34,022 bases of DNA from an uncultured Caryophanales bacterium. GTDB lineage: Bacteria > Bacillota_I > Bacilli_A > RF39 > UBA660. Where the stretch lies: NCBI GenBank assembly GCA_947306705.1, contig CAMZHD010000008.1, forward strand, positions 1 to 34,022. Direction: 5' to 3'. Positions 10,464 through 34,022 of this stretch are shown here, piece by piece. Every line of letters begins with the position of its first letter. The first letter of the stretch is position 1. A program made the position numbers and the translations under genes. The notes under the pieces are model-generated. The model saw nothing but the letters and a program-made list of their open reading frames with translations, was not told the DNA's origin and did not search any database.

Positions 10464-10489
10464 AAGAACCAAACCTTGGTTCTTTTTTT
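10464..10489 (+). terminator. Rho-independent terminator
   Basis: AAGAACCA-aacct-TGGTTCTT followed by a T tract. Confidence 0.85.
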
Positions 10490-10495
10490 GTTTAC

Positions 10496-10524
10496 TTGCA
10501 TTTTTAAGGGTTTTGTGTTATAAT
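10496..10524 (+). promoter_or_regulatory. Sigma-A-type promoter for the L,D-transpeptidase
   Basis: TTGCAT (10496-10501), 17-bp spacer, TATAAT (10519-10524). Confidence 0.65.
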
Positions 10525-10555
10525 ATAGCCCTCAGTAAAAAAAGGGGGTTTTTTT

Positions 10556-11803
10556 ATGGGAAGATTAAAAGCAGTGTTATTAGCGAGTATTGTAGGAGCA
10601 GGTGTAATATTTGTTCCTAAATTAATATCGAATGATAAACAGGAAACAGAAATATCAAATGCAGACTATGCGATTTATGCAGCAGCAGATAATGAACAAA
10701 TTGGAGAGATTCATATTGAACCAACTGTATATGACGTATTAAGAGAAGGCGGATATAATCTTTCTGATAATCCAATTTTAGAGAATGCCTTAAAAAAGCA
10801 TAATTTTAGTATCGATGATCGTAATTCTGGTCAAATGACTGTAGATGCAAACTTTAGAAAAGGACCAGGAACGGAATATGATATTATTGAAGAATTAAAA
10901 AGAGATATTCCATTTAAAGTACTTGCTCGTAGTGATAATGGCTGGTATTTAGTAGACTATCAGGGATCTTTAGGTTTTATTAGTGCTGATTATGTAGAAA
11001 CTTATAATCCAGAAGCACTTCAAGAAGATTTAAGTCATATGCCACGTGTGGTACCGGGCGTTCGTGCTTTAACCGATGTTAATATTCGTCGTGAACCAAA
11101 TACTAATAGTGAAATTATCACAGTACTAGACCGTACGCATGCAATTCCAGCGGGTACTCCATCCAGTGATGAATGGATTCCGGTATCTTATCAAGGTCAA
11201 CCAGGTTATGTTTATGGTGGACTAGTAGATGGTCATAAACTTGTTGAACAAACAAGTGTTATTGAAGGGTCTTGGATAGAAAAAGTAGATGTTATCCGTG
11301 ATTGTGCTATCTATAATAAACCACATGGAGAAGTCAGTGGAGCTATTCCTCAATACCAATCAGCTAATGTTTATGGAGAAGTAGATGATTACTACTATGT
11401 TGATTGTGATGGACAACTTGGATATGTTAGAAAAAGAGATTGTTCTAAAACAACTGAAACTTATGCTGTTGTTGATACTAGTATGAGAAAACTATTCTTA
11501 TATTGTGGAAACCAAAAAATAAATTCTGTATATTGTGGAATTGGTAAACCAGAAACTCCAACTCCACTTGGATGTCACTCTGTTCAAGAAAAACTTGAAA
11601 ATACTGTATTAGTAGGGGAAGATTATAGAGTACCTGTTGATTTCTTTATTCGTTTCGTTGGACAATGTGGAATCCATGATGCAGATTGGGTAGTAAATTT
11701 TGGAGTGGAAGTATCTCATGGATGTGTAAATGCTCCTCCAGGAGAAGTTCCTCTTTATTATAAGACACTAAGTGTAGGAGATACTGTTATCGTTCAACCA
11801 TAA
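10556..11803 (+). CDS. SH3-domain L,D-transpeptidase (YkuD family)
   Basis: Three SH3b-like units (NFRKGPGTEYDII..., NIRREPNTNSEII..., a third at AIYNKPHGEVSGAI...). C-terminal YkuD catalytic motif IHDADWVVNFGVEVSHGCVNAP. Confidence 0.9.
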   Translation: MGRLKAVLLASIVGAGVIFVPKLISNDKQETEISNADYAIYAAADNEQIGEIHIEPTVYDVLREGGYNLSDNPILENALKKHNFSIDDRNSGQMTVDANFRKGPGTEYDIIEELKRDIPFKVLARSDNGWYLVDYQGSLGFISADYVETYNPEALQEDLSHMPRVVPGVRALTDVNIRREPNTNSEIITVLDRTHAIPAGTPSSDEWIPVSYQGQPGYVYGGLVDGHKLVEQTSVIEGSWIEKVDVIRDCAIYNKPHGEVSGAIPQYQSANVYGEVDDYYYVDCDGQLGYVRKRDCSKTTETYAVVDTSMRKLFLYCGNQKINSVYCGIGKPETPTPLGCHSVQEKLENTVLVGEDYRVPVDFFIRFVGQCGIHDADWVVNFGVEVSHGCVNAPPGEVPLYYKTLSVGDTVIVQP

Positions 11804-15434: not shown

Positions 15435-16136
15435 ATGAAAAATGAGGTAGAAGTAAAGGCCCAAAAAATTTACAAGCGAGAATTGACCAAAAAAAGCGCT
15501 AGAATATTATTTTTACTTTTATTGATTTTTGTGTCAATTATTTATTTGGTTTTATATGTTGTTTACCAAGGTGGAAAGTTTACTGTGTCTTTGGACAAGA
15601 ACTTATCCAATCGGAAGAACGTTTTCTTGTCAGAAACCGGAAAATTTTCTGGAAAGACGAGAGAATTAAGCGCTGAGACAATCCATTATATGGATAATAT
15701 TTCCATTAATTGGTTGCCAGAAGACATCGACCAAGAAAAGACTGGATCGCATAATGGTGATAATTATATTGCTTATACGTTCTATGTTGTTAACGCTGGT
15801 AAAGAAGAGGTTCATTACTGGTATGAAATTGGAATTGATGATAGCATTCTGAGTGTGGATGAGGCTATTCGAATTATGGTTATTCGAAATGGTGAAAGAA
15901 CTGTCTATGCAAAGAAAAGTGCAGTAAATGGGGAAGCCGAGGTTGGTACGAAGAAATTTGCTTCTGAAACATTCGCTGTTTTAGAACAAAGAAAGAATTT
16001 CAAACCTAAATCTAAGGATCGATATACTGTCGTTATTTGGATTGAGGGGGATGACCCAGAGTGTAAAAATGATCTCTTGGGTGGAGAAATAAAAATGCAC
16101 ATGGACTTTACTGAAGAACATATTGATAAGAAATAG
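15435..16136 (+). CDS. TasA/camelysin-like exported protein (putative fibre subunit or anchor)
   Basis: Single N-terminal TM. C-terminal YTVVIWIEGDDPECKNDLLGGEIKMHMDF resembles the end of the next gene product (RIYMWIEGQDVDCEDHASGSSLTFNLQF). Confidence 0.6.
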   Translation: MKNEVEVKAQKIYKRELTKKSARILFLLLLIFVSIIYLVLYVVYQGGKFTVSLDKNLSNRKNVFLSETGKFSGKTRELSAETIHYMDNISINWLPEDIDQEKTGSHNGDNYIAYTFYVVNAGKEEVHYWYEIGIDDSILSVDEAIRIMVIRNGERTVYAKKSAVNGEAEVGTKKFASETFAVLEQRKNFKPKSKDRYTVVIWIEGDDPECKNDLLGGEIKMHMDFTEEHIDKK

Positions 16137-16153: not shown

Positions 16154-17155
16154 ATGGCAAAGAGAGAAAGAAAAAGTAGGAAAAGAAGAAGAGTTCTTCT
16201 TGCAATCATAATGATATTATTTGTTGGTGTTGTACTAACAACTTCAACATATGCATGGTTTACTGCAAATACTACTGTTACAGTAAGCTCAATTGATGTT
16301 AATGTTTCAACATCATCTGGATTACAAATATCAGCAGATGCAAATGATTGGAAAGCAATCTTAACAAACAATGATTTGTTGAATGCAAACTGGACTGGTA
16401 TTCGTAACCAAATTCCAAATGGAGTTGATGAGGTTACAGTTCCAGTATCAACAGTTGGAGATGTTGATGCAGATGGATATATGCAAATGTATCGTGGTAC
16501 TGTTGAGACTGATAATACTACAGGTAGAAATATTTTAACTGCAGTTAAATCATTAGAAACTCAAGGTACTTCAGGAGATTTCATTGCATTCGATGTATTC
16601 TTCTTATCATCAGAAAGACAAATGATTTACTTAACTTCTGAATCAAGTGTAGTATACAGTGGTTCAGCTGATAAAGGTATTCAAAATGCTGCTCGTGTAG
16701 GATTTATTAAAGAAGGTTCTGTAGCTTACGGATCTACTCCTGCTCAAGCATATGCTATTAAAGGTAATGTTTCTAAGATGATTTGGGAACCAAACTATGA
16801 TGTTCATAAAGCATCTGGTGTAGCTAATGCATCAAGTGTTTATGGAGTTACAACTTCTACAACTGGTGGTTCTAAGTTATCTTATAGTGGTGTTAGAGCT
16901 CCAATTAGTATTACAGATAATGTACCATTAAATTCTACAAGTAGTACATGGTTTGGTCCAGTTACTACTGTTGGTTCAGTAGCATCAGGAATTCCAACAA
17001 CTGCATATCTTCAAATGTTTGAAGTTGAAGAAGGAATTACGAAAGTACGTATTTATATGTGGATTGAAGGACAAGACGTTGACTGCGAAGACCATGCTTC
17101 TGGTAGTTCTTTAACATTTAATCTACAATTCAGTATTAATGATAAAGCTGGATAG
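16154..17155 (+). CDS. SipW-dependent TasA/camelysin-like protein (candidate major fibre subunit)
   Basis: MAKRERKSRKRRRVLLAIIMILFVGVVLTTSTYAWFTANTTVTVSSIDVNVS: SipW-type signal followed by a beta-rich domain and C-terminal WIEGQDVDC. Confidence 0.7.
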   Translation: MAKRERKSRKRRRVLLAIIMILFVGVVLTTSTYAWFTANTTVTVSSIDVNVSTSSGLQISADANDWKAILTNNDLLNANWTGIRNQIPNGVDEVTVPVSTVGDVDADGYMQMYRGTVETDNTTGRNILTAVKSLETQGTSGDFIAFDVFFLSSERQMIYLTSESSVVYSGSADKGIQNAARVGFIKEGSVAYGSTPAQAYAIKGNVSKMIWEPNYDVHKASGVANASSVYGVTTSTTGGSKLSYSGVRAPISITDNVPLNSTSSTWFGPVTTVGSVASGIPTTAYLQMFEVEEGITKVRIYMWIEGQDVDCEDHASGSSLTFNLQFSINDKAG

Positions 17156-19919: not shown

Positions 19920-19966
19920 ATGTGCTATAATATAAGTTAGAAGAATAGATAGTGGTGGTGATTAAT

Positions 19967-21187
19967 TTGAAAAGATTAAAGATGATCTTGAAAGCTTTTG
20001 CAACTCTTTTTTTAATCCTATTAGTGTCTTTGTGTATATATACTTTTGTAGTTACGGATATCATGAAGAAGGACTATGTTAATGTCTTTGGATATACGTA
20101 CTTTGTAGTCGCTACCGGATCTATGTCAGGAACGATAGAAGTTGATGATATTATCTTCGTTAAATTAACTGATAAAGTTGAGGTAGATGATGTTATTACT
20201 TTTAAAAGCAAAGATGGAGATATTATTACACATCGATTGATTAAGAAGGATGGTAGCCGGTATGTTACCAAGGGAGATGTCAATAATGTGGTGGATGAGG
20301 CGATTACAAAAGATCAAATCATTGGCCGCGTTGATTTTGTTATTTCTCCTAGTTTTATTTTAAAATCAATCGCCGTATTCTTAATTATTTTTATTCTTTT
20401 GGCATTAGTTAATTTTGACAGTGTTGTTAAAAAGTATATTGTCAAAGGGGATCCTAAAGAGACCCCTAAAATACCGGAAGAATTGTTCTCTTCGAATGCT
20501 ACGATTCAAGAAGATCATTCTGGATTAACCGTTACGATTCGATTAGAAGATGTCGAACAATTAGAGAAAATTCAAGAAAAAGAAGCAGAACAAAGTGAGA
20601 TGGAAACGGTAGAATTACTTGATGAAGAGAGCTTCTCTTTCTTACCAAAGAAAAAGAAAGCTACTTATTTCAAAGAAAAAGAAACTGTAGATTTGGTTGT
20701 TGCCATTTTGAAATGTAAAAAGAATACCGTTAAGGCTAAGATGAATAAGAAATGGCTTACAAAATTCCAATATGTTTATAGACTTTGTCATTTGTTACTT
20801 CTTAAGAATACAGATGCGATGATAGAGGATATTAATCATCCTCCTTTCAAAGAATTATATGATTATAATGTTGATTCTGTTGGATTGACTGAGACCATTC
20901 GAGATCGAATCTTTGAAATGCCAATTTCCGTATTCTTACGAATCTTAACATATTGTATTTTATACAATGATGAAGAGATGTTTGATGGAGTCTATAAAAT
21001 ATTAAAATTTAAAGTATTATTTGATAAAAACAATGATTTTAGAGAGATTAAGAGTGTGGATATGCATACGATTAAACAAATTAAGTCATTGATTCAATTT
21101 ATGAAAAAAGTATCAGAACGTTTTGATAATAAAAATGTTTTTGAACTAGATAAAATCGAAAGATTAGCGAAAATAAACAACTATTAA
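19967..21187 (+). CDS. sipW: SipW-type signal peptidase I (ER-type Ser/His) with C-terminal cytoplasmic extension
   Basis: FGYTYFVVATGSMSGTIEVDDIIFVKLTDKVEVDDVITFK...IITHRLIKK...YVTKGDVNNVVDEAITKDQIIGRV. N- and C-terminal TMs, then about 240 extra residues. TTG at 19967 after a GTGGTGGTG-like RBS is the likely start; 19952 GTG is the alternative. Confidence 0.85.
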   Translation: MKRLKMILKAFATLFLILLVSLCIYTFVVTDIMKKDYVNVFGYTYFVVATGSMSGTIEVDDIIFVKLTDKVEVDDVITFKSKDGDIITHRLIKKDGSRYVTKGDVNNVVDEAITKDQIIGRVDFVISPSFILKSIAVFLIIFILLALVNFDSVVKKYIVKGDPKETPKIPEELFSSNATIQEDHSGLTVTIRLEDVEQLEKIQEKEAEQSEMETVELLDEESFSFLPKKKKATYFKEKETVDLVVAILKCKKNTVKAKMNKKWLTKFQYVYRLCHLLLLKNTDAMIEDINHPPFKELYDYNVDSVGLTETIRDRIFEMPISVFLRILTYCILYNDEEMFDGVYKILKFKVLFDKNNDFREIKSVDMHTIKQIKSLIQFMKKVSERFDNKNVFELDKIERLAKINNY

Positions 21188-21203
21188 AATGGAGGTGAAG
21201 ACA

Positions 21204-24200
21204 GTGAAAGAACTAATGATAAATCAAAAGAAAAAATTTATCCTTTTTGCTGTCTTTTTCTTTGTTTTGACAGTACTTGTTTCTTATTTCCTTTTAACAG
21301 GACGTTTTTCATTTAGTTCTTATGAAGGTGGATGGGATGGACAAACTGTTGCGATTGACTTTGTTGGTGGTAATGGTACTTATGAAAATCCATATATAAT
21401 TTCCACTCCAGAAGAATTTATTTATTTTAAATCTGTTATTGAGGGAGATAGTTCTCTTGGATATCAAGATAAATATTATGTATTAAGTAATGATTTAGAT
21501 TTTAATCAATTTCCATTCTCAAGTATTGGAGTGATTGGAGAAGAATCTGAAAATATCTTTAAAGGACATTTAGATGGGGCAGGACATACACTTCGTAATA
21601 TTGTCATTCAAAATAGTTCTGTTTCCGGAGAAACTTCTTATTATGGTTTATTTAATAAGATGGTAGATGGAAGGGTAGAAAACTTATTAATTGATAATTT
21701 AACGATTAATGTAGAAGAAGAGGAAAGAAAAATCATTGCAGGAAGTTTAGTTGGATTCAGTGATAGTAGTAATCCTGATGAACCTACTTCTTTCTTTAAA
21801 AATATTTCTATTACGAATTATCAAGTAAATACAAGTGGTGCTTCTTCTCCTGAAAATGAAGTAAATGCCTTTATTGGATATGTTACTTCTAGTCAAGGAA
21901 TTCATAATATTATTTTAGAAGGTTCTCTTGTGAATAATGATACTCCTCGAAGTGGTTCTGTGATTGGAGGTAATAGTCCAATTTCTTCTATTATTGATAA
22001 CGTTCATTTAGAGAAATTTGATGGTGATTCTTTAGTTCATGAAGGAATTGAAGAGTACTATTCTATGATTGATGGAGGTATCTATCTAGAGGGTGAATTT
22101 GTTGGAGACGATGCGGTTTTATTCTTATTCAATCAAGATATTAAGAGTGATTATTATTGGGTAAGAGAAAATGGAGTATTCTCTATTCAAATGTATCAAA
22201 GAATTGTAGAAGAGGCTCCTGTTACAGAACAAAGTTTTACATTCTCTATGAGAAGTGCTCCTAACTTTGCCGTTCATGATTCTGGAATTGATACTACAAA
22301 TGGTATTGTTTATATTAATGATTTAGATGCTGATTATGATTATTACATGGGACTTAATTATACAACTCCAAGTGATAGTGATATTCCATCTACTTCTAAT
22401 AAGAACTTATATGGAGATAATAACTTAAAGAAGTTTGAAATTATTTATCGTGGGGCATTAGATTCTACTAGAAAAGGTACCGTTTCTTATGAATCGGGTG
22501 AAAATCAAACAGACTTTATTTATTTTAAGTATTATCCAGTTAGTGGAAACTCTATTGATATTGAGTTAATCGATAATCCATATGCTGGTAGACCATACAA
22601 TATGGGATTTAATGGATGGGTTAGTACAGATAGCAATGTAGTTGTTTACTTAGATGATGATTCGTTTGTATACCATGCTATTGTACCAGTTACATCTAAT
22701 GAGACAGTGGTTGAGTTCTATGCTTCTTGGGTAGAAGCTACTATGGATGATACAGATAGTAATAATGATAGTATTCGTAATGCTCTAGATAGTTTAAATA
22801 ATAAAGCTTTATTAGAAGCAAGTACTTGGGAGATGAGAACACGATTATTACCAATCATTGATAATGATGAATATTATTATACTCGTGTAATTTTAAATCG
22901 AAATGATTCTCAAGCAGGATATTATTCTGCTTATGGAGGAGCTTTGACAGGTACTTGTAATAGTGCTACCTGTACTGTTTATGATAGAGTAACTGCTGGA
23001 TCTGATTGGGATGAAAATACTACTTATTATCACTACTATAACTATGCGATGAGAACGGTTGATCCTAGAGTAGAAGAACAATATCGTGCCGCAACAACAA
23101 TGTATAATGGTATGAATATGGGTGGTTTCTATGAACAAAAAGTTGTTCGTAGAAATGAAAGCATTGATGGATGTCGTAACTTAAGTGGTGCAAGATTAAC
23201 GGGAAATTGTGCCAATGCTTTATGTACTGTTTATTCTTTAATTCCTTTTTATGATGAGAATAATAATCCTAATATTTTGGATGTTGATAAAACATACTAT
23301 TATTTAGTAACAAGAGATACAAACTTTGTTTATTTAAACTCTTATAGTAATACTGCTAATAAAAATTATTGGACATCTACTAAGCCATTTACTTTAACAA
23401 GTTATTATAATGGGGTAGATTCTCGTGCATCTGCTTATTATGATTTTAGTACTACTTATATGAAGGCTGCTGGAGATAATCGAGTAGAATATGTTCGATT
23501 CTATTCCAATGAAGATGGTAGTTATGATGGTGGTTCCTTAACGACAGGAGCTACTGGTAGAGGTATTGTTTATGGTAACTTCCAAAACTTTAAAATAGGT
23601 CGAGGAATTACTTCTAGAAATGGTTATAAATCTGCAATAGCAGTAACTGCTACCGATAATTATACGAAGAGTAGTACTTACTTTAGATTAACGGTTGAAT
23701 CTGGTTCTTATACCTATGGTGGTGTTTTAACATTAAGACGTGATAATGGTACTTGGAACAATCCAAAGGGTCGTGCTGTATTTGGTAGTGATTATGACCG
23801 CGTTAAAAATGATAATAGTAAACTAGAAATTTATAAAACACTCTATGGTAGTATGACACAAACAATTAACTGTTCTGATCATAGTAATAAAGCTTTAGAT
23901 TTAATTATTAAAAGTGGTACTATTGGTCGAATGGGTATTGATGGTACTGTAGGAAACTTAGGTATTTATGTTAGTAGTAACTCTTCTGGTGTTGTAGGAT
24001 GCTCTAATAGTGTAACGGTAGAAGGTGGAAGAATCTTTACGATTTATGGTGGACCTGGGCCCTCTACTTCAATGCAAAACTATAATGCTATCTTTATTTA
24101 TCATAAAGGTGGAGTTACAGATGCTGTCTTTGGTGGAGGAGCTTATCTTACAACCAATGGTAACCGTATTGTTTCCGTTACAGGTGGTACTGTTAACTAT

Positions 24201-27200
24201 GGTGTTGCTGGTGCAAGTAATGGTTATGCAGGAAACGATAATGATAGAAAAGCAATTTTAACGGGAGACTCTTATGTTTATGTCGGAGGACATGCAACAA
24301 TTGGAAATACGACTCTTTCCGATAAATTATATGATATTGATGTAGGTTCTGTATTTGGATCTGCTAATGGTAGAAGTGGATATAATTCTGTTGGTTCTTC
24401 TGATAATTCGTATGTGGTTATCAATGGTGGAACCATTAATGGAAATGTTTATGGTGGAGGTAACTATGGAGCGGTTGCTGTTTCCTTAAATTCTGGTACT
24501 CATGAATCTAAAATTAGTATTGTTAGTGGTACGATTAAAGGTTCTGTCTATGGTGGGGGTAACAACAACGGTGCTGGAAACCCAAGTTATTCTACACAAA
24601 ATACTGTTAATACTTCTATTGAAATGACGGGTGGAACGGTTGAAAAATCCATTTATGGTGGAAGTAGAACGAAAGGAACTGTTTTTGGCTCTTCTAATAT
24701 TCATATTAATGGTGGAAATGTCTTACAAGATGTCTACGGTGGAGGCGAAGGAGGTTATCGAAATAACAATAACCCTGGAACTTATATCCGTAGTGGTGTT
24801 TCTGTTTTAGTGGATAGTGGTACTATCGGTGGAAATGTTTATGGTGGTAGTGCTTATGGATCTGTTAATACCATTAACCAAAATACAAATTCAAGTTCTT
24901 CTACAACAAATGTTGTTGTTAATGGAGGAACCATTACTGGAAATGTATTTGGTGGAGGTAAAGGTGGATCTGTCGATGGAAATAACTATACTCCAAAAGT
25001 TGTTGGTAATATAACTGTTGATATTAACGGTGGATCTATGTCTAAGGTGTTTGGAGGATTTGATGAATCTGGACGACCAAGTAATGGAGATGTCGTTAAT
25101 TTAAATGGCGGAACCATTGGAAATGCTTTTGGTGGAGGAAATAAAACTAGTCAAACGACGACAAATATTAATCTGACTGGATCTACGATTACTGGTAATT
25201 TATATGGTGGATCTAACTTATCAGGAACGGTAACAACTACGAATGTTACTGCTACCAGCGGATCGGTTGCTGAAATCTTTGGTGGTAACAACTTAGGAGG
25301 ATCTACTGGAACAACTAATGTTTCTGTAACAGGTTCTTTAACTGTTTCTGGAGATATTTATGGTGGAGGTAATGAAGCTTCTGTTTCGACAAAGACAAAT
25401 GTCACAATTACCAATGCTACTGTACATGATGTTTATGGTGGAGGTAAAGGTGAAACAAATGATGCTGATGCTAGAGAAACATCTGTTACCATTACTGGAA
25501 CAACTGGTGGATCTGTCTTTGGTGGATCGAATGCCTCTGGTACTGTTGATACAAGTGGAGTAACCATTACAAACTCAACTTTTACAAATGCTTATGGTGG
25601 AAATAACCAAGGTGGAGAAACCGATGAAACTCATATAACGGTTACGGGTATTTCTCAAATAACCAACGTATTTGGTGGAGGAGATAATGCTTCTTCCGGA
25701 GATTCTAATGTAACGATTTCTGGGGGAACGATTACAAATGTTTACGGTGGAGGTAATGAAGCTGGTCTTGATACTTCCGAAGTAACCATCAGTGGAGGAA
25801 CGGTTACAAGTGTATTTGGTGGTTCGAATACGACTGGAGATGTTTCTACTTCTCATGTTTGGGTCAGCAATGATAATGCCCATATTACTACCGTTTATGG
25901 TGGAAATAACTTAGGTGGTACTACTGTTGATACCAATATTGCGATTGCTCAAGGAGAAGTTGGTACTGTTTTTGGCGGAGGAAATAAAGCTCCTGTTGGA
26001 ACCACGACTGTCAATATTGGCGGTGGAACTATCGGTAGTGTTTATGCCGGAGGTAATGAAGCTTTAGTATCTGGAAGTACTTACTTAGATATTGATGGAG
26101 GATCTTTCTCTGGAAGTATCTTCGGTGGAGGTAATGAAGGTTTAGTTAATGGAAGTACAGAAGTCTTTGTTACGGATGCAAATGTTCTTGGAAATATTTA
26201 TGCTGGAGGTAATGGTAGTACAGCCATTGTTCAAGGAGACTCTACTGTTACTATTGATGGAGCAACTGTTGTAGGTACTGCTAGTTCAGATGTTCCTCGA
26301 GAAGGATGCGTATTCGGAAGTGGTAATGCTGCTTCTACTGGAGTTCAAGCAGAACAAAATTCTACAGCAACTGTTAATATTGCTGGTGGAGTTATTTATG
26401 GAAACGTTTACGGTGGACCAAGAATGGCTGTCGTTTATGGAGAAACTAAAACAAATATCGGAATGAGTGCTATTACAAATTCTAATACTTTAACAGAAGA
26501 TGATATTCATATTTATGGAACCGTCTTTGGTGGAGGAGAATCAAACGATACTGGATCTACTAACTTCGACTGGACATTCATCTCTGTTACACAAGGTATT
26601 GATATTAATATTAATGGTACTGGTTATGAAGATCATAGTCATGAATTTATCATTAATGGTAGTATCTTTGGAAGTGGAAATGCATCTTCTTCTTCAGGAC
26701 CTTCTAGTATTTATATTAAAAATCTTGGTACTATGGATCATCCAAACCAAAGTATTTCAATTCAAAGAACGAATGAATTGGTAGTAGATGCTTCTTGTAT
26801 CGAGTTAGCTGGTATTACCGATAGTACGAATGACTATTCTGATATTTACTATTCATTTAACTTAGTTGACCATCTTACAATCAAGAATGGAACAACTTTA
26901 TTACTACAACATAATGCGAATAAACTAGAATCTTTCTATAGTGGAGTGGATTCTGGAGGTACTTTGGTACCTGCTACGGTAACTATTAATGATGATACTA
27001 AGACTGTTACGAAAAATGTTGATAATCGTTTATATATGTTACCAGGACAAGTTCTTAATATTGCGGTTAACCAAGCAGCTACTTCTTATGGTGAAGTCTA
27101 TGGAATGACGTTCTTTGGAATGTATCAAGTAAACGAAGGAAACTATCGTTATGGATTATATGGGCCAACTTATGATTATGGAGATGCGGCTAACGCAAGT

Positions 27201-29312
27201 GCTCAAATCATTGGTGGTAGTTACGTTGTTGGTCTTCGTAAGACTAATCATGATATTACAAAAGATGGATTCTATTCGAATTATTTGAAAGATGGTACTT
27301 TTGATGAAATTAAAACACAATACATCGATCCAGAGGATATCGGAGAAACTGGTTACCAATGGTTGATCGGATTCGATGCTATTAACTATGAATTTACTTT
27401 GACAGCTTCTAAGTATGCTTCCTTAGGTACTTATGAATTACAAATGATTCATTTTGCTGAAGGTAATACTACTTTCAAAGTATTAGGATTCAATGTTGAA
27501 GGTATGGATGATGATGTTACCTTAGTCGATGTTAATGATGTACCAAGAGTTGCGGATACAGAAGAAGAAGCCAATACAATCTTTGGTTTATCTATGAAGG
27601 CTGAAACTTCTGAGTGGACTGGTTATGGTACTACGAAATATCTTGATACCGATGGAGGAGACTTCACAGGAACGGATGAGTATCTAACCGATAATAAAAA
27701 GATGCCGCCATCTCTTATGTTCTATCTATATCATGCAAAGAACATAACGAGAAATGGAAACATTGGTGATGGTATTATCAGTGTTCAAGCATCTATTCCT
27801 AGAAATGCTGTTGAAGATGAAATAAAGTTTATTAATATTACGGTTCATATGAAGGCAAGAGACTTTGGTGATGGAGATAGTTACGATGCTTCTATTACTT
27901 ATGATAAGAAATATGAAATGCCTGCTTTGACAGATGTTAACATTACAAATCAAAGTCAATTTACTGCTTATTTCTCATTAATTAGTTATAATGAACAATT
28001 TAGTAATATTTATGGAAATACAAATTCTTATAAGCATATGTTAATTACAAATGATCCATTACCTGTTAATACGGTTATTACGATGATGGACTTTGGTGCT
28101 GGAACGACTAGACCATTGTACTATTACTATCGAATTACACAAGCGGATTATACGGCTGCTCAAGCAGAAAAAACTCAATATGATGAGTGTACTTATCTGT
28201 TATCGAAGTTTATTAAGATGGATAGTACCAGTTCAACGAATACATATGATGATGCATCGTCGAACTTACTATATTATGATACGAATACTCATCTAGCGGA
28301 TGAAGAGTTTATGTTTATCTTTGACTTTAAAGAAACGAATGTTACAGGTACTCATTTGAATAATCATGTATCCTTTGAATTAAGGGATAGTGATCGATTC
28401 CCAATCTTCATTGTATTAGGAATTCGTGATACACAAATGTATTACAGTACGTATGATAGTAGTAATGCGGTACTACTTCAAACGTTTGCTGGAAATGATA
28501 ATTATTTATATTACAATGTTGAAGATGAGTTTGATTATGCAACTGCGATTCAGTATAATGCGACTGGTAATAATAAACCAGTTATTGATACAAACTATGA
28601 ATCTAGTAAGATGGGTCTAAATGTTATCTTCTTAGATAGTGATGGAGAACAGGTTACATCCAGCTTATTAGTGGGTACAAGTATTAGATTCGGAAGAGTC
28701 AATTACTATGCGGATGGTAATGGAGTCTTTAGAATTAAACTTGCTAATAAGGTATCAAATATTGAAAGACCTGCTGGAATTACGGTAAGTGAATTCTTAC
28801 CACCGGGACAATATACGGTACGATATAGTTTATTTGCTTCTAGTGATGGATTACATAATGCATCTTCTGAAGTGGTTACTCAAGATTTTGTTGTAAATGT
28901 AGTTGGATCTGAAAACTCTATTACAGCAGAATGTGATGATACTACAAAATTAGTTGACGGAGAAACTGGAAAGAATGCGGCTGGCACTACTACTAATACA
29001 TATACTGTTAAGTATGAGTCTCAATTATCAAATCCAAATTTCCGTATTGAGATTTACAAGAGAAACATCGATGATGTAAATTCTATTACTTATACTTCTG
29101 TTCCATTTAGTGATTTATTTACTAATAATTTCACTGTAGTATCTGGAAATGAAGTAAGTTTTACAATGACTGATTCTGAAGAAGATATTGATTTAACTTT
29201 AAATTCTACTTTAACGAGTGGTACTTATCGAGTAGTCTTTAAATTATATGATAATGATCAAGTTATTGATGAAGATATCAAATATGTTATTGTAAAGAAA
29301 AAAATAGAATAG
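21204..29312 (+). CDS. Giant (about 2.7k aa) exported beta-helix-like, glycine-rich repeat protein
   Basis: N-terminal TM (KKKFILFAVFFFVLTVLVSYFLLTG) and GLUG-like segment (GGNGTYENPYIISTPEEFIYF...LDGAGHTLRNIVIQN). Long array of GTIxGNVYGGGN-type turns. GTG 21204 sits after GGAGGTGA; ATG 21189 is the alternative. Confidence 0.85.
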   Translation: MKELMINQKKKFILFAVFFFVLTVLVSYFLLTGRFSFSSYEGGWDGQTVAIDFVGGNGTYENPYIISTPEEFIYFKSVIEGDSSLGYQDKYYVLSNDLDFNQFPFSSIGVIGEESENIFKGHLDGAGHTLRNIVIQNSSVSGETSYYGLFNKMVDGRVENLLIDNLTINVEEEERKIIAGSLVGFSDSSNPDEPTSFFKNISITNYQVNTSGASSPENEVNAFIGYVTSSQGIHNIILEGSLVNNDTPRSGSVIGGNSPISSIIDNVHLEKFDGDSLVHEGIEEYYSMIDGGIYLEGEFVGDDAVLFLFNQDIKSDYYWVRENGVFSIQMYQRIVEEAPVTEQSFTFSMRSAPNFAVHDSGIDTTNGIVYINDLDADYDYYMGLNYTTPSDSDIPSTSNKNLYGDNNLKKFEIIYRGALDSTRKGTVSYESGENQTDFIYFKYYPVSGNSIDIELIDNPYAGRPYNMGFNGWVSTDSNVVVYLDDDSFVYHAIVPVTSNETVVEFYASWVEATMDDTDSNNDSIRNALDSLNNKALLEASTWEMRTRLLPIIDNDEYYYTRVILNRNDSQAGYYSAYGGALTGTCNSATCTVYDRVTAGSDWDENTTYYHYYNYAMRTVDPRVEEQYRAATTMYNGMNMGGFYEQKVVRRNESIDGCRNLSGARLTGNCANALCTVYSLIPFYDENNNPNILDVDKTYYYLVTRDTNFVYLNSYSNTANKNYWTSTKPFTLTSYYNGVDSRASAYYDFSTTYMKAAGDNRVEYVRFYSNEDGSYDGGSLTTGATGRGIVYGNFQNFKIGRGITSRNGYKSAIAVTATDNYTKSSTYFRLTVESGSYTYGGVLTLRRDNGTWNNPKGRAVFGSDYDRVKNDNSKLEIYKTLYGSMTQTINCSDHSNKALDLIIKSGTIGRMGIDGTVGNLGIYVSSNSSGVVGCSNSVTVEGGRIFTIYGGPGPSTSMQNYNAIFIYHKGGVTDAVFGGGAYLTTNGNRIVSVTGGTVNYGVAGASNGYAGNDNDRKAILTGDSYVYVGGHATIGNTTLSDKLYDIDVGSVFGSANGRSGYNSVGSSDNSYVVINGGTINGNVYGGGNYGAVAVSLNSGTHESKISIVSGTIKGSVYGGGNNNGAGNPSYSTQNTVNTSIEMTGGTVEKSIYGGSRTKGTVFGSSNIHINGGNVLQDVYGGGEGGYRNNNNPGTYIRSGVSVLVDSGTIGGNVYGGSAYGSVNTINQNTNSSSSTTNVVVNGGTITGNVFGGGKGGSVDGNNYTPKVVGNITVDINGGSMSKVFGGFDESGRPSNGDVVNLNGGTIGNAFGGGNKTSQTTTNINLTGSTITGNLYGGSNLSGTVTTTNVTATSGSVAEIFGGNNLGGSTGTTNVSVTGSLTVSGDIYGGGNEASVSTKTNVTITNATVHDVYGGGKGETNDADARETSVTITGTTGGSVFGGSNASGTVDTSGVTITNSTFTNAYGGNNQGGETDETHITVTGISQITNVFGGGDNASSGDSNVTISGGTITNVYGGGNEAGLDTSEVTISGGTVTSVFGGSNTTGDVSTSHVWVSNDNAHITTVYGGNNLGGTTVDTNIAIAQGEVGTVFGGGNKAPVGTTTVNIGGGTIGSVYAGGNEALVSGSTYLDIDGGSFSGSIFGGGNEGLVNGSTEVFVTDANVLGNIYAGGNGSTAIVQGDSTVTIDGATVVGTASSDVPREGCVFGSGNAASTGVQAEQNSTATVNIAGGVIYGNVYGGPRMAVVYGETKTNIGMSAITNSNTLTEDDIHIYGTVFGGGESNDTGSTNFDWTFISVTQGIDININGTGYEDHSHEFIINGSIFGSGNASSSSGPSSIYIKNLGTMDHPNQSISIQRTNELVVDASCIELAGITDSTNDYSDIYYSFNLVDHLTIKNGTTLLLQHNANKLESFYSGVDSGGTLVPATVTINDDTKTVTKNVDNRLYMLPGQVLNIAVNQAATSYGEVYGMTFFGMYQVNEGNYRYGLYGPTYDYGDAANASAQIIGGSYVVGLRKTNHDITKDGFYSNYLKDGTFDEIKTQYIDPEDIGETGYQWLIGFDAINYEFTLTASKYASLGTYELQMIHFAEGNTTFKVLGFNVEGMDDDVTLVDVNDVPRVADTEEEANTIFGLSMKAETSEWTGYGTTKYLDTDGGDFTGTDEYLTDNKKMPPSLMFYLYHAKNITRNGNIGDGIISVQASIPRNAVEDEIKFINITVHMKARDFGDGDSYDASITYDKKYEMPALTDVNITNQSQFTAYFSLISYNEQFSNIYGNTNSYKHMLITNDPLPVNTVITMMDFGAGTTRPLYYYYRITQADYTAAQAEKTQYDECTYLLSKFIKMDSTSSTNTYDDASSNLLYYDTNTHLADEEFMFIFDFKETNVTGTHLNNHVSFELRDSDRFPIFIVLGIRDTQMYYSTYDSSNAVLLQTFAGNDNYLYYNVEDEFDYATAIQYNATGNNKPVIDTNYESSKMGLNVIFLDSDGEQVTSSLLVGTSIRFGRVNYYADGNGVFRIKLANKVSNIERPAGITVSEFLPPGQYTVRYSLFASSDGLHNASSEVVTQDFVVNVVGSENSITAECDDTTKLVDGETGKNAAGTTTNTYTVKYESQLSNPNFRIEIYKRNIDDVNSITYTSVPFSDLFTNNFTVVSGNEVSFTMTDSEEDIDLTLNSTLTSGTYRVVFKLYDNDQVIDEDIKYVIVKKKIE
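24020..26700 (+). repeat. Irregular glycine-rich beta-helix-like repeat array (x-[VI]-[FY]-G-G-[GNS]-N)
   Basis: Dozens of [VI][YF]GG[GNS]N turns (GNVYGGGN, SVFGGSN, TVYGGNN, NVFGGGD) at roughly 22-35-aa spacing. Confidence 0.85.
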
Positions 29313-29362: not shown

Positions 29363-29971
29363 ATGAAAAAGGTTTTTCATTGGGTTTGGTCTATTTTAGA
29401 AGTTATTATTATTGTGTATGTTATCATCATGACTGCTTATATTCTAAATAAGAATAAATATGGTTATACACAATTTGGTAATTATACTTTTCATAATATT
29501 AGTTTATTTGATGAAAAGAATGTTCAAAATACGAAAAATGGTGACTTATTAGTTGTTAAGAATTCAAATGACATTAAAGAAGGGGATGTAATTTATTACT
29601 ATGCTCCTTATAATGAAAGTTATATTCTTAGAACGGATGCAGTCGTTGCGATGGAGTCTGATGATTATAGTTCTCTTTACACAGTAGATCATGGAGGAGC
29701 TGTTACAATTTCTAGTAATCGTGTTATTGGAAAATATGCAACAACTTATCATAAGATTGGTGCTGTTGTAGGAGTTCTTGAAAGTAGAATTGGATTCTTA
29801 TTCTTAGTATTATTACCAATTATGATTGTCTTTATCTATCAAGTTTATGAGTTTGTTATCATCCTAAGATATGAAACTGTTGAGGATGAAGCAGAGGAAA
29901 TAAAAGAAGAGAAACCTAAGAAAAAGAAAGAGACTGTAAAGTCTTCTGATGAGGATGTAGAAATTTTATAA
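29363..29971 (+). CDS. SipW-like signal peptidase-fold protein, apparently lacking catalytic residues
   Basis: Co-linear with the 19967 product: YGYTQF..., NGDLLVVKNSNDIKEGDVIYYY, YTVDHGGAVTISSNRVIGKY, flanking TMs. GSM is absent and the ITHRL equivalent reads SYILRTD. Confidence 0.7.
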   Translation: MKKVFHWVWSILEVIIIVYVIIMTAYILNKNKYGYTQFGNYTFHNISLFDEKNVQNTKNGDLLVVKNSNDIKEGDVIYYYAPYNESYILRTDAVVAMESDDYSSLYTVDHGGAVTISSNRVIGKYATTYHKIGAVVGVLESRIGFLFLVLLPIMIVFIYQVYEFVIILRYETVEDEAEEIKEEKPKKKKETVKSSDEDVEIL

Positions 29972-29978
29972 AAAAATT

Positions 29979-30008
29979 GAGATTATTTTACAATAATCTC
30001 TTTTTTTT
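29979..30008 (+). terminator. Rho-independent terminator
   Basis: GAGATTATT-ttac-AATAATCTC followed by 8 T. Confidence 0.88.
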
Positions 30009-30037
30009 ATGGTATAATGATGATAATAGGAGTTAAT

Positions 30038-30658
30038 ATGGAAAATAGAATCAAGATGTACAAATTTATGTCTATTATCATGGTATTATTTTTAATAGCG
30101 TGCTTTTTCTATTTGAATTCAAAATCAACATATACGTTGTATGAATCCAATATTGATGGAAAGTATTCTATTCCTACGTCTAAGATTCATATTACGTTAA
30201 ATGATGTAGATGTTTTTGCCAATGCATCTCCTCTTGATAGTAGTGTGTTTGATAATCATATTATTTGGGATGATTATCACGTTCGAGAGGGAAAAGTAGC
30301 TCCTGGAGCAGCGGGACTTGTTACCTTGGACTTAAATCCAGCAGGGTCTGAAGTTGCTTTATTATTTGAATTTGAATTTATTACGGATAATTTGCCTCAA
30401 GGAATGCATATTGAATATTCCGATATTCAAGCAAACCATATGTTTATACAAACAGGAGAAAATACGTATAGTGGTATTATTACTCTTCCACAGATTGAGA
30501 TTGGAACGACCGTTAATATTTCATTCTGGTTTACATTTGATTATGATGATGATGTAGAAGTTACCTCTTTTGTACCAGAACAAATCCCTGGTTTATTTGA
30601 GATTAATTTCCATGCATATCAATACCAAGGAGAGACAATTGTACCATATTCAGGATAG
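30038..30658 (+). CDS. Small exported beta-rich protein, TasA/camelysin-like candidate
   Basis: MENRIKMYKFMSIIMVLFLIACFFYLNSKSTYTLYESNI (TM/signal), then a beta-rich domain. GGAG upstream. Confidence 0.55.
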   Translation: MENRIKMYKFMSIIMVLFLIACFFYLNSKSTYTLYESNIDGKYSIPTSKIHITLNDVDVFANASPLDSSVFDNHIIWDDYHVREGKVAPGAAGLVTLDLNPAGSEVALLFEFEFITDNLPQGMHIEYSDIQANHMFIQTGENTYSGIITLPQIEIGTTVNISFWFTFDYDDDVEVTSFVPEQIPGLFEINFHAYQYQGETIVPYSG

Positions 30659-30665
30659 GAGATTT

Positions 30666-31280
30666 ATGAAAGAAGCATTTTCAAAAATTCAAAATATTAC
30701 GCTTTTTGAAGAAAAGAAAAGATTTCTTCTTTTTGTGCTACTATTATTTAGCATGTTATTCTTATCTTATTATTTACTAACCGTTGCTTATTCTAGATAT
30801 GAAGTACAAACAAAGATTTTCTCTAATATTGATAAAGCTGTTTATATTTTTAAAGGAGAAGATGTAAGTTTTAACTTGGATCCAGATGGTATTGTTCCAA
30901 GTAGTACTGCTTATTCTTATCGTTTTAGTGTTTCTAACTTTGATGGAGAAACGATGGGAGATGTGGATCTTTCTTATACAGTATCTGTTCGTACAACTAC
31001 GAATTTACCAATTAGTGTTGCGTTATATCGAAATGAATTACCAGAAGCAAGTGGGGCAACGAATATACTAAGTGCTGCGAGAAATGCACAAGATGAAGAT
31101 GGTGCTTGGTATCGAGTTTATGATGTGAATGATGAGTATGAAATGTTATTTGAAGATCAAGTAACGGATGTTTATACGATGGTAATTACATTCCCTGCTG
31201 TTTATAGTAATGATCCAATATACTCTAATTATTTAGAAAATATTGAAGTGTCTCTTCATTCTGAACAGATGATTGCATAG
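30666..31280 (+). CDS. Small exported TasA/camelysin-like protein
   Basis: MKEAFSKIQNITLFEEKKRFLLFVLLLFSMLFLSYYLLTVAYSRYEVQTK, then FSVSNFDGETMGDVDLSYTVSVRTTTNLPISVALYRN. GATAGGAG upstream. Confidence 0.65.
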   Translation: MKEAFSKIQNITLFEEKKRFLLFVLLLFSMLFLSYYLLTVAYSRYEVQTKIFSNIDKAVYIFKGEDVSFNLDPDGIVPSSTAYSYRFSVSNFDGETMGDVDLSYTVSVRTTTNLPISVALYRNELPEASGATNILSAARNAQDEDGAWYRVYDVNDEYEMLFEDQVTDVYTMVITFPAVYSNDPIYSNYLENIEVSLHSEQMIA

Positions 31281-31288
31281 GAGGGCTT

Positions 31289-32224
31289 ATGATGAAATTT
31301 ATTCGAAAACATAAAACTCTTAGTATCCTATCATTAATCTTTTTAATAGGTTTTGTCTTTGTAACGGTTGCTTACGGACGCTATATTCGTAATATTATCT
31401 ATGACTTTATCTTAGAAACAAAGGCATTCTATTTTGATAGTGGAATTTTAGGGGTAAATGAAAAACACTATTCTATTGAAAACTGGGATGGTGTCAATTC
31501 TTATCCATTAACGATTGACTTAACAAATCGAAAAAATAGTAGACGTGTTACCAATACGGATATTGTTTACACAATTTCTGTGGATTGTCCTACAACGGTT
31601 ACTTGTTCCTTAAGTAAAAATGGAGATACCATTCATCCAGAAGAAGATCTTGATACTTTTCAAGTTACTGTATATCCTCATCAAAGTTTCTCAGAAGGGG
31701 ATACGGTTACGGTAGGAGTAACAGTTACTTCTTCCGCTCCTTATGTAAAGACATTGAGTGCTTCATATACGATTGGTGTGGAAAAGAGTAATTTCACGTA
31801 TGAGATTGTGGATAGTTCTAGTTCTAAATATTTAACGGTTAACTTCGTTAATTCGATTGCTTATTATGAAGTAGAAACAGCATTTGGTTCTTATGCAGTA
31901 GGAGATAAGATTAATCTAGATGACTTTATTAATTTGACACCAGCTGAACAAGCAAATTGTTTCTCTGCTATTGTTACTTTAACGTATGATCCTCAAGTAT
32001 TAGAAGTGGATATGACAGATTTAAATTATATCCATCATTTACCAACCAATTATCAAGAACAGACAATTAATGGATTCCAGTATGTTAAGAAATTTTCATT
32101 TAAGATACCGGCAAGTTCTAGTACAAGTGTCTTGTTCTATAAAAACGATGTTTCTCAAAACTATACATATCCAGTTGTCAACCAAACATCGATTGTCCAA
32201 GTTTCTGTCAATAAAGCAGATTAG
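31289..32224 (+). CDS. Small exported TasA/camelysin-like protein
   Basis: LSILSLIFLIGFVFVTVAYGRYIRNIIYDF signal, then LTIDLTNRKNSRRVTNTDIVYTISVDCPTTVTCSLSKNG. Shares the TVAYxRY junction with the preceding gene product. Confidence 0.6.
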   Translation: MMKFIRKHKTLSILSLIFLIGFVFVTVAYGRYIRNIIYDFILETKAFYFDSGILGVNEKHYSIENWDGVNSYPLTIDLTNRKNSRRVTNTDIVYTISVDCPTTVTCSLSKNGDTIHPEEDLDTFQVTVYPHQSFSEGDTVTVGVTVTSSAPYVKTLSASYTIGVEKSNFTYEIVDSSSSKYLTVNFVNSIAYYEVETAFGSYAVGDKINLDDFINLTPAEQANCFSAIVTLTYDPQVLEVDMTDLNYIHHLPTNYQEQTINGFQYVKKFSFKIPASSSTSVLFYKNDVSQNYTYPVVNQTSIVQVSVNKAD

Positions 32225-32281: not shown

Positions 32282-33334
32282 ATGGAAAATTTAATCAGTG
32301 TATTTATGAATTATAAAGTTAATCGCCTTGTCGAATATGGGGTTTTGATTGATGGTCGTGATTCAAAGTTTGTAAGAGAAGTATGGGAACACTATTTCCG
32401 TACTTTTATCGATAATTATTACTATCAAATTTTCCATACTATTGATGCTGATCATTTTACAGAAAAGAACTTAAAAGATGAATTAATTGGTGCGAAAGAA
32501 GAAATGTTAGATGATTATCGTGAATTCGAATTACAAGTTAGTAATGAAGAGTATTCAGGAAATCAACAAATCATTCAAGAATTGGAACCTCTCGCATTTG
32601 ATATCTGCAAAATAGAATTATTAAAGTATGAAGATAAATCTAGTATTCCAGAAGTTGTGACTCATTTTATTGAACAACATGAAGAACTAAAGAGTCGACT
32701 AGATACTCGTTTATCTAAACTTATTACATTGGTACGTGAAACAATTACTACTTGTGATAAGATGATCCATTATGAAGATAATTACTATACTTTATCTGAA
32801 AAGAAATTTGAAAACTATGATAACATTCGTTATATAGAATTAATTCCACAGATTAAAGTATTAGATGTATATAAAAAAGGTATGATTACAAAGATCTACC
32901 AAGATAGTAAATTAGATGCTAAAAAGATGGAATGCTTCCTACAAAAAGTATCTCTTTATATCTTAAAGAAGGTACTTGCAAAAGAAGAAATCAATCAATT
33001 GATTATTCGAGTAGATAGCCCATTTGTTAGTAGAGGGAAATTTGATCCTAAGATGTATCCTTTGATGGATAATCCATTATTTAGGAAATATGTTGTGATT
33101 GGAGTTCCTTATAATACTTATTTATCTCAAAAGGAAGCTTTTGCAGATGACTTTGTATTTGCGTGTATTCAAGACTTTTCACATATTAGTGATATTTATC
33201 AAAAGATATTTAATATCTATCAAGAAGGTATTTTTGATTATTTGATTGTAGAAGATTGTCGATACAGAGAAAGAGAATTCTTCTTGAAGTATGATCAAAA
33301 TGTGTTGAAAGTGTTAGTGTTTGAGGAGGAATAA
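32282..33334 (+). CDS. Cytoplasmic protein of unknown function, adjacent to the ATPase
   Basis: 350-aa ORF with no TM, ending directly ahead of the next start (GAGGAGGAATAATATG). Confidence 0.7.
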   Translation: MENLISVFMNYKVNRLVEYGVLIDGRDSKFVREVWEHYFRTFIDNYYYQIFHTIDADHFTEKNLKDELIGAKEEMLDDYREFELQVSNEEYSGNQQIIQELEPLAFDICKIELLKYEDKSSIPEVVTHFIEQHEELKSRLDTRLSKLITLVRETITTCDKMIHYEDNYYTLSEKKFENYDNIRYIELIPQIKVLDVYKKGMITKIYQDSKLDAKKMECFLQKVSLYILKKVLAKEEINQLIIRVDSPFVSRGKFDPKMYPLMDNPLFRKYVVIGVPYNTYLSQKEAFADDFVFACIQDFSHISDIYQKIFNIYQEGIFDYLIVEDCRYREREFFLKYDQNVLKVLVFEEE

Positions 33335-33335
33335 T

Positions 33336-34022
33336 ATGGATACATTTATACGATTCTTATTTGAATTTATGTCTGTATTCTTTAAGGGTGTTGGAATGAT
33401 ATTTGGTGGTATTTTTAAAGGTATTATTCAATTATTCAATTTTCAAGACTATTGGAATGTAGTAGAATTCTATCGAAAAGATTTTTCAGGAGCAGAATGG
33501 ATCTTTGTTGTGATTGCGATACTTGTAATGCTTGTAATCTTAGGTTTAATTGTATTACTAGTTATATTCTTTATTAAGAAATATGTTAAGTTCCGTAAGA
33601 CTTTAGTAGAACAAGAATCTATGCTTCAAGAAATAGGAGAGTTAAATCGTGAAGTTGCGAATCTTGTAGAAGAAAAAGAAAAGATTTTAGCAATGAAAGT
33701 TTCTCAACTTGGATTAAAACCAGGAGAAGAAGCTACGGTTACTTCTGAAGAGACTGAAAGTACAGAGACCCTTGATGGTGATGTAGATAGTTATCGTTTC
33801 TCTAAATTACATGCGATTGATTTGGAATTTAGAGATTACAAAGTACAAAACTACAACAATACCTTTACTTTGGAAGAGTTAGTAGAGTATTTCAGAAACT
33901 TCTGTGCTTCTAAGTTAAGACTTTACTATACAACGAATATGATTCGTTTGTTTATCTCAGGTTTATCTGCTACTAAGTTAGTTATACTTCAAGGTATTTC
34001 TGGTACTGGTAAAACTTCCTTA
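33336..34022 (+). CDS. Membrane-anchored P-loop (AAA+-like) ATPase, 3'-truncated by the window edge
   Basis: Open to the last base: MDTFIRFLFEFMSVFFKGVGMIFGG...WIFVVIAILVMLVILGLIVLLVIFFIKKY (TM), coiled coil (EQESMLQEIGELNREVANLVEEKEKIL), then KLVILQGISGTGKTSL (Walker A). Not in the ORF track. Confidence 0.75.
   Translation, partial: MDTFIRFLFEFMSVFFKGVGMIFGGIFKGIIQLFNFQDYWNVVEFYRKDFSGAEWIFVVIAILVMLVILGLIVLLVIFFIKKYVKFRKTLVEQESMLQEIGELNREVANLVEEKEKILAMKVSQLGLKPGEEATVTSEETESTETLDGDVDSYRFSKLHAIDLEFRDYKVQNYNNTFTLEELVEYFRNFCASKLRLYYTTNMIRLFISGLSATKLVILQGISGTGKTSL

Follow-up and report, generated by a model that had tools for sequence, protein, structure and literature searches.

A SipW-type signal peptidase homologue without an active site, encoded among active SipWs, surface protein genes and an McrB-like GTPase in uncultured gut Bacilli

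Why should a gene cluster that codes for two active signal peptidases of the SipW type also keep a third member of the family that has lost its catalytic residues? The question is raised by an open reading frame at positions 29363..29971 (+ strand) of the window, the whole 34,022-nucleotide stretch of DNA that was analysed. The frame is present exactly as given in the first-pass annotation, starts with ATG and codes for a protein of 202 amino acids. Its product features a first transmembrane segment (TM1, approximately residues 8-30), an extracytoplasmic beta domain, a second transmembrane segment (TM2, approximately residues 143-169) and a charged cytoplasmic tail whose carboxyl terminus is DVEIL. 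This TM1-beta domain-TM2 organization resembles that of Bacillus subtilis SipW and of other S26B (ER-type) peptidases, including SEC11A and SEC11C, the second transmembrane segment being as in SipW. The annotation had proposed a catalytically dead paralogue of SipW, hereafter dead SipW, that could act as a chaperone, anchor or partner for substrates such as the giant protein coded by the neighbouring gene.

The ancestry of dead SipW was traced with protein family models. The NCBIfam SipW model NF046067 matches residues 6-186, nearly the full length as in B. subtilis SipW, with an E value of 3.4e-6 that is far under the curated equivalog cut-off, and TIGR02228 matches with E 0.007, also under its curated cut-off. 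The models that match are of the S26B type (SipW and archaeal-type); TIGR02227, the bacterial P-type model, is absent among the matches, which do not indicate an S26A (Ser-Lys) ancestry. Alignment of the dead-family profile to that of the short active SipW with hhalign gave 99.3% probability (E 1.6e-20) and to that of the long SipW 90.6% (E 1.3e-6), against at most 4.3% for eight control profiles of unrelated proteins of the cluster, membrane proteins among them. By these profile comparisons the product of 29363-29971 is a true SipW/S26B homologue and its nearer paralogue is the short active SipW, whose gene in the source genome lies outside the window (C6:35442-36038, - strand), rather than the long SipW of the window. 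The pairwise match first drawn by eye to the product placed at 19967 did not hold: BLASTP of dead SipW against the long SipW, coded from 19952, had a best E value of 0.13, which is not significant, and no full-length match.

The AF2 model of dead SipW (mean pLDDT 83, pTM 0.67) superimposes through residues 3-143 on SEC11C (7p2q_A) with Z 7.2, rmsd 5.4 and 129 of 148 residues aligned. SEC11A ranked third in a weak Foldseek search (E 0.031), in which the remaining top rows are Tudor barrels of ~50 residues with Z similar to that of SEC11C. Because such barrels dominate the fold search, the claim of homology is not based on it. A sequence search of the PDB with the dead-family profile gave no match; the active-family profile matched SEC11A and SEC11C in the same type of search (E ~1e-8).

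Loss of the active site was assessed in 43 aligned members of the dead family, with the catalytic columns placed by profile alignment. Column 50, the position of the catalytic Ser, has Ser in three of the 43 proteins and D, Q, N, A, L or other residues elsewhere. The catalytic His column 92 never has His (0/43); six proteins have a His one column further, without the Ser motif. The SM motif was found by pattern search in a single protein out of 62 of the dead family, and that one is divergent. Among the 43, the sole extracytoplasmic column in which Ser, His, Lys or Cys reaches 90% is S141, which borders TM2, and no replacement catalytic dyad is conserved. The loss read from these alignments is real and family-wide, as the first-pass annotation had supposed for this one protein. 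The family departs from SipW and other S26B peptidases also by an extended, variable loop in place of the Ser strand and by two motifs of its own, NKYGYTQFG, which follows TM1, and a central GDxIYYY. Its invariant residues are N31, L62, Y78-Y80, Y87, G123, G133, F145, P152 and Y159. Since the loop that replaces the Ser strand varies, the peptide cleft of dead SipW may not have been kept.

Close pairs of orthologues of dead SipW have dN/dS values of 0.07-0.29, a range similar to that of the active SipWs (0.02-0.25); those of the GTPase are mostly lower (0.03-0.10). In a quick tree with midpoint root, the dead genes group in a single clade (SH-aLRT 98), separate from the long, short and class-level SipWs. 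Eleven columns are invariant over the 43 sequences, orphan copies included. According to these sequence data dead SipW is under purifying selection and not in decay. Dead SipW matches occur in 33 of 39 genomes of the genus and in all 11 of good quality, a few of the genus-level matches at the threshold used being active homologues. Approximately 45 loci with dead SipW were found in uncultured gut Bacilli, in separate metagenome-assembled genomes whose record titles name Erysipelotrichaceae, Bacillales, Bacilli, Firmicutes or Tenericutes, which rules out an assembly artefact; the majority of the genomes compared are incomplete. A spread of the dead family across the class Bacilli was considered and rejected, as the 30 weaker homologues found at class and family level all keep the SM and H motifs. 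Among the genomes sampled, dead SipW appears restricted to the family of the window.

In the window, dead SipW is the last gene of a block opened by the long active SipW (19952..21187, + strand, 411 amino acids). The long SipW has GSM and THR motifs and a carboxyl-terminal cytoplasmic domain, and matches TIGR02228 over the cut-off (6.8e-15). It is followed by the giant repeat protein gene (21189..29312, + strand, 2707 amino acids), 50 nucleotides upstream of the dead SipW gene. The giant protein has one amino-terminal transmembrane segment and YGGGN-type repeats, many of them GGNxYGGG-like, matches no Pfam or NCBIfam family and is ~51% identical along its length to the one relative checked. 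The dead gene lies directly downstream of the giant-protein gene in 36 of the 48 cases examined. After it, at 29979..30008 (+ strand), an AT-rich hairpin with a T8 run (-7.9 kcal/mol) might be the terminator of the SipW-giant-dead unit. The assignment is only suggestive because a strict scan that requires GC finds no terminator 3' of the dead SipW gene, while a looser check finds comparable hairpins in 15 of 29 loci.

The + strand continues with genes for small secreted protein A (30038..30658; likely start 30038 in a frame that opens at 30017), small secreted protein B (30666..31280; likely start 30666, frame opening at 30570) and secreted protein C (31289..32224). Each has a single transmembrane segment, amino-terminal in A, followed by TYTxYES, AYxRYE and AYGRYI, respectively. 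They precede g350 (32282..33334), which codes for a 350-amino-acid cytoplasmic protein of no known family, and the start of a gene for a membrane-anchored McrB-like GTPase with coiled coil and Walker A motif GISGTGKT (33336..34022), truncated by the contig end. In most complete loci the order is long SipW-giant-dead-A-B-C-g350-McrB-McrC-short active SipW-TasA-like, followed where loci are complete by a divergent secreted protein gene on the other strand. In the source genome the genes for McrC, the short active SipW and the TasA-like protein are found in this order at the end of contig C6, and because the synteny of the cluster continues from the window contig (C8) to C6 the two very probably join. 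Upstream in the window two more small secreted proteins are coded at 15435-16136 and 16154-17155; the transmembrane segment of the latter ends in TSTYAWFT, and the protein has a weak match, below cut-off, to TIGR04088 (SipW-dependent signal, E 0.013).

The cluster has a fixed chromosomal site, with scpA and scpB on one side and a gene whose product starts MELE..FRYLVGGYYG on the other, and at several such sites only a remnant is found. L067, L094 and L110 have lost the giant gene together with every small secreted gene, and the dead gene alone is left. In three others it is left with a short SipW gene: L124 of genome G017 (short SipW at 10477-11058), where the two genes overlap by 4 nucleotides, L121 of G032 (8865-9635), where the dead gene ends 25 nucleotides before the short SipW gene, and L073 of G021 (contig C13, 6975-7550). 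The short SipW has lost its Ser (NNEM) or its His (ILNR) in all three pairs, and where the surface cluster is gone both SipWs look like pseudo-enzymes. G006, G021 and G030 keep the cluster elsewhere in the genome. G017, which is 94% complete, has no match to McrB or to the giant protein; no McrB shows in G020 and G032 either, but these genomes are only 69% and 77% complete. The apparent absence of the dead gene from G005 falls at an N-filled gap and was not counted as a loss. The aligned orphans (L094, L106, L110, L121, L123 and L124) retain the invariant columns, and dead SipW therefore seems to have a role independent of the giant protein and of local SipW activity. The early proposal of a pseudo-peptidase partnering such substrates gains from a gene that is conserved, under selection and encoded with likely substrates, the giant protein most often adjoining; this protein is unlikely to be the sole client, since some loci, and at least one near-complete genome, have the dead gene but no giant gene.

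Parts of the cluster occur apart from each other. G019 has A-B-C-g350-McrB-McrC-SipW at the same site without the giant or dead genes, and L102 has long SipW-giant-dead on a 15.5-kb stretch without McrBC. Judged from these arrangements, the SipW-giant-dead and McrBC modules can part. The long SipW-giant-dead block is present twice in genome G016, in L102 (contig C3) and L089 (contig C38); one of the copies is followed by a small secreted gene on the reverse strand, with no McrBC in reach.

The GTPase of the cluster has a transmembrane segment and a coiled coil, and its McrC-like partner is a DUF2357 protein. The McrB homologue of L088 matches NF008457 (McrB) with E 3.4e-6, below the cut-off of that model, and FtsL-type models weakly through residues 62-139 (E 0.015 and 0.035), its transmembrane stretch and Walker A motif being visible; the McrC-like partner matches PF09823 above cut-off (E 9.7e-12). 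The McrB/McrC pair with its signal peptidase neighbours fits the CoCoPALM systems, whose GTPase signature is the NxD variant and which Bell et al. (2024) named in a few sentences that leave the rest for a later paper (PMC11090510). The signature of the cluster GTPase, TINNDDST, read by eye, is compatible with both NxD and NxxD. As outlined there, an McrB GTPase fused to a transmembrane segment and a coiled coil has an McrC partner and neighbours of the signal peptidase family, and the name refers to a presumed link to pilus assembly. The dead SipW cluster has the same components, with a GTPase of McrB type whose membrane and coiled-coil amino terminus is FtsB-like, a DUF2357 McrC-like protein and adjacent signal peptidases. 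Its pseudo-peptidase, giant and TasA-like proteins and g350 fusions (see below) find no mention in the short description of CoCoPALM in that paper. Elsewhere in the class, in other families, the SipW that adjoins a CoCoPALM-type McrB has both the Ser and the His motif, and for this reason the dead paralogue seems to have been added in the family of the window.

Dead SipW and McrB tend to be found together. Among 291 sampled genomes of the family, 71 have both dead SipW (counted at E below ~1e-22) and McrB, four only dead SipW, 15 only McrB and 201 neither (Fisher p 2e-47, kinship not corrected for). The two genes are less than 20 kb apart on one contig in 60 of the 71 genomes. A more direct connection is suggested by gene fusions, which are limited to a minority of divergent clusters. 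In four loci a homologue of g350 is fused to an active SipW directly upstream of McrB (L068 10403-12355, L078 7557-9617, L169 9503-11938 and L170 5962-8100; 98.9% with E 1.5e-17 over 335 aligned columns). Two further loci have a g350 homologue fused to dead SipW directly before McrB, whose gene the fusion overlaps by 4 nucleotides (L125 2747-4702 and L126 2740-4803); the tails of these dead fusions align to those of the active ones with 99.7% (E 1e-25). As g350 occurs fused to both, either active or dead SipW can be the membrane carrier of the g350 domain beside the GTPase. Beyond the partnership first proposed, the fusions and the arrangement of the genes suggest a further link, to g350 and the McrB/McrC-like GTPase on the cytoplasmic side. 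Dead and short SipW have another feature in common at their carboxyl terminus, which is E-[ILV]-[IL]-COOH in 26 of 48 dead and 13 of 27 short SipWs, compared to 9 of 213 unrelated genes, and in none of the other cluster proteins, the long SipW included. This motif (29954-29971 in the window) is a possible docking or stability signal.

We propose, with a probability of roughly one half, that dead SipW is a non-catalytic structural and recognition subunit of a membrane complex that makes surface fibres or surface proteins. It would keep the signal peptidase body of TM1, beta domain and TM2 without being able to cut, sit beside active SipW and help to hold or orient SipW-type preproteins, namely the small secreted proteins, the TasA-like protein and the giant repeat protein. 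On its cytoplasmic side, g350 would connect these outer components with the McrB/McrC-like GTPase. The data show ancestry, loss of the active site, selection, a fixed neighbourhood, co-occurrence with McrB and the fusions; the complex itself, its binding of substrates and its coupling to the GTPase are inferred. The variable loop in place of the Ser strand, the restriction of the g350 fusions to a minority of divergent clusters and the separability of the two modules speak against the proposal. A more specific and tentative form of the proposal is that active and dead SipW build a hetero-oligomeric signal peptidase, in which the dead subunit would link the recognition of preproteins on the outer side of the membrane, through g350, to the McrB-type GTPase on the inner side. 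If this were true, the cluster would code for a GTP-driven machine that processes or assembles surface fibres, built from restriction-system parts.

The inactive SipA of Streptococcus pyogenes suggests another role. This signal peptidase homologue has an intact cleft and is essential for pilus polymerisation, with no demonstrated ligand (PMC4049620). Dead SipW could similarly be a substrate chaperone whose cleft binds the signal peptide region or another segment and presents surface proteins, the giant protein first, without a direct link to the GTPase. The SipA precedent and the position of the dead gene directly 3' of the giant gene, possibly in one transcription unit, speak for this possibility, which we nevertheless consider rather doubtful: the dead gene persists where the giant and small secreted genes are gone, G017 keeps it with no match to the giant protein, and the fusion of g350 to dead SipW next to McrB suggests a cytoplasmic link. 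It is unlikely that dead SipW is a decoy or regulator of active SipW that dimerises with it or competes for preproteins, damping or timing their processing. The common ancestry of dead and short SipW, their unusual carboxyl-terminal motif and the pair with overlapping genes would agree with such a regulator, but the dead gene stays beside short SipWs devoid of Ser or His in G017, G021 (C13) and G032, which weakens the idea because no local activity is left to regulate, unless the target is another SipW coded elsewhere.

Two further explanations concern the protein itself. If the active site had moved, a protease or transferase might use Thr36 (95% among the 43 dead SipWs), Thr42 (91%) and Asp61 (93%), all in the extracytoplasmic domain. 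These residues are not accompanied by a conserved Ser, His, Lys or Cys, Lys32 and Lys124 reaching only 77% and 74%, and may also be structural, behind TM1 and within the GD turn, so that we regard a new activity as quite improbable. A functionless duplicate on its way to decay would account for the lost catalytic residues and for the few copies that are short or have in-frame stops in the matched stretch. The selection data contradict decay, as the low dN/dS, the invariant columns and the match in every good-quality genome of the genus show, and its probability is put close to nil. The structural and recognition subunit stays our preferred reading of dead SipW.

The closest functional precedent, by analogy, is SipA, also a dead signal peptidase homologue adjoining surface-fibre genes and with an essential role in their assembly (PMC4049620). 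SipA derives from the S26A branch (P-type, Ser-Lys) and belongs to sortase pilus loci, whereas dead SipW is of S26B ancestry and has active SipW in the same cluster; no sortase gene was noticed among the genes of the loci compared. SpsA of Staphylococcus aureus, which lacks two catalytic residues and is dispensable, is likewise an inactive paralogue in a genome that codes for an active signal peptidase, SpsB; it is of the P type and is not described within a surface-protein/GTPase cluster (PMC12445088). No inactive SipW paralogue was found in the open-access literature, which was the part covered. SipA and SpsA are both of the P type, while the cluster described here has a conserved and selected dead paralogue of the S26B/SipW type together with two active SipWs, and makes the role of a non-cutting signal peptidase directly testable. 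The signal peptidase genes of CoCoPALM systems have so far been described by neighbourhood alone; the fusions offer a concrete candidate link that would run from secreted substrates through SipW or dead SipW and g350 to the McrB/McrC GTPase.

As in B. subtilis SipW, the neighbours of dead SipW resemble TasA-type substrates. The SipW model hits the 1.3-Mb source genome nine times in all, on contigs C16, C6 (two), C4, C1, C9, C2 and C8 (two); five of the hits lie in open frames of ~375-412 amino acids, that is, SipWs with an extension.
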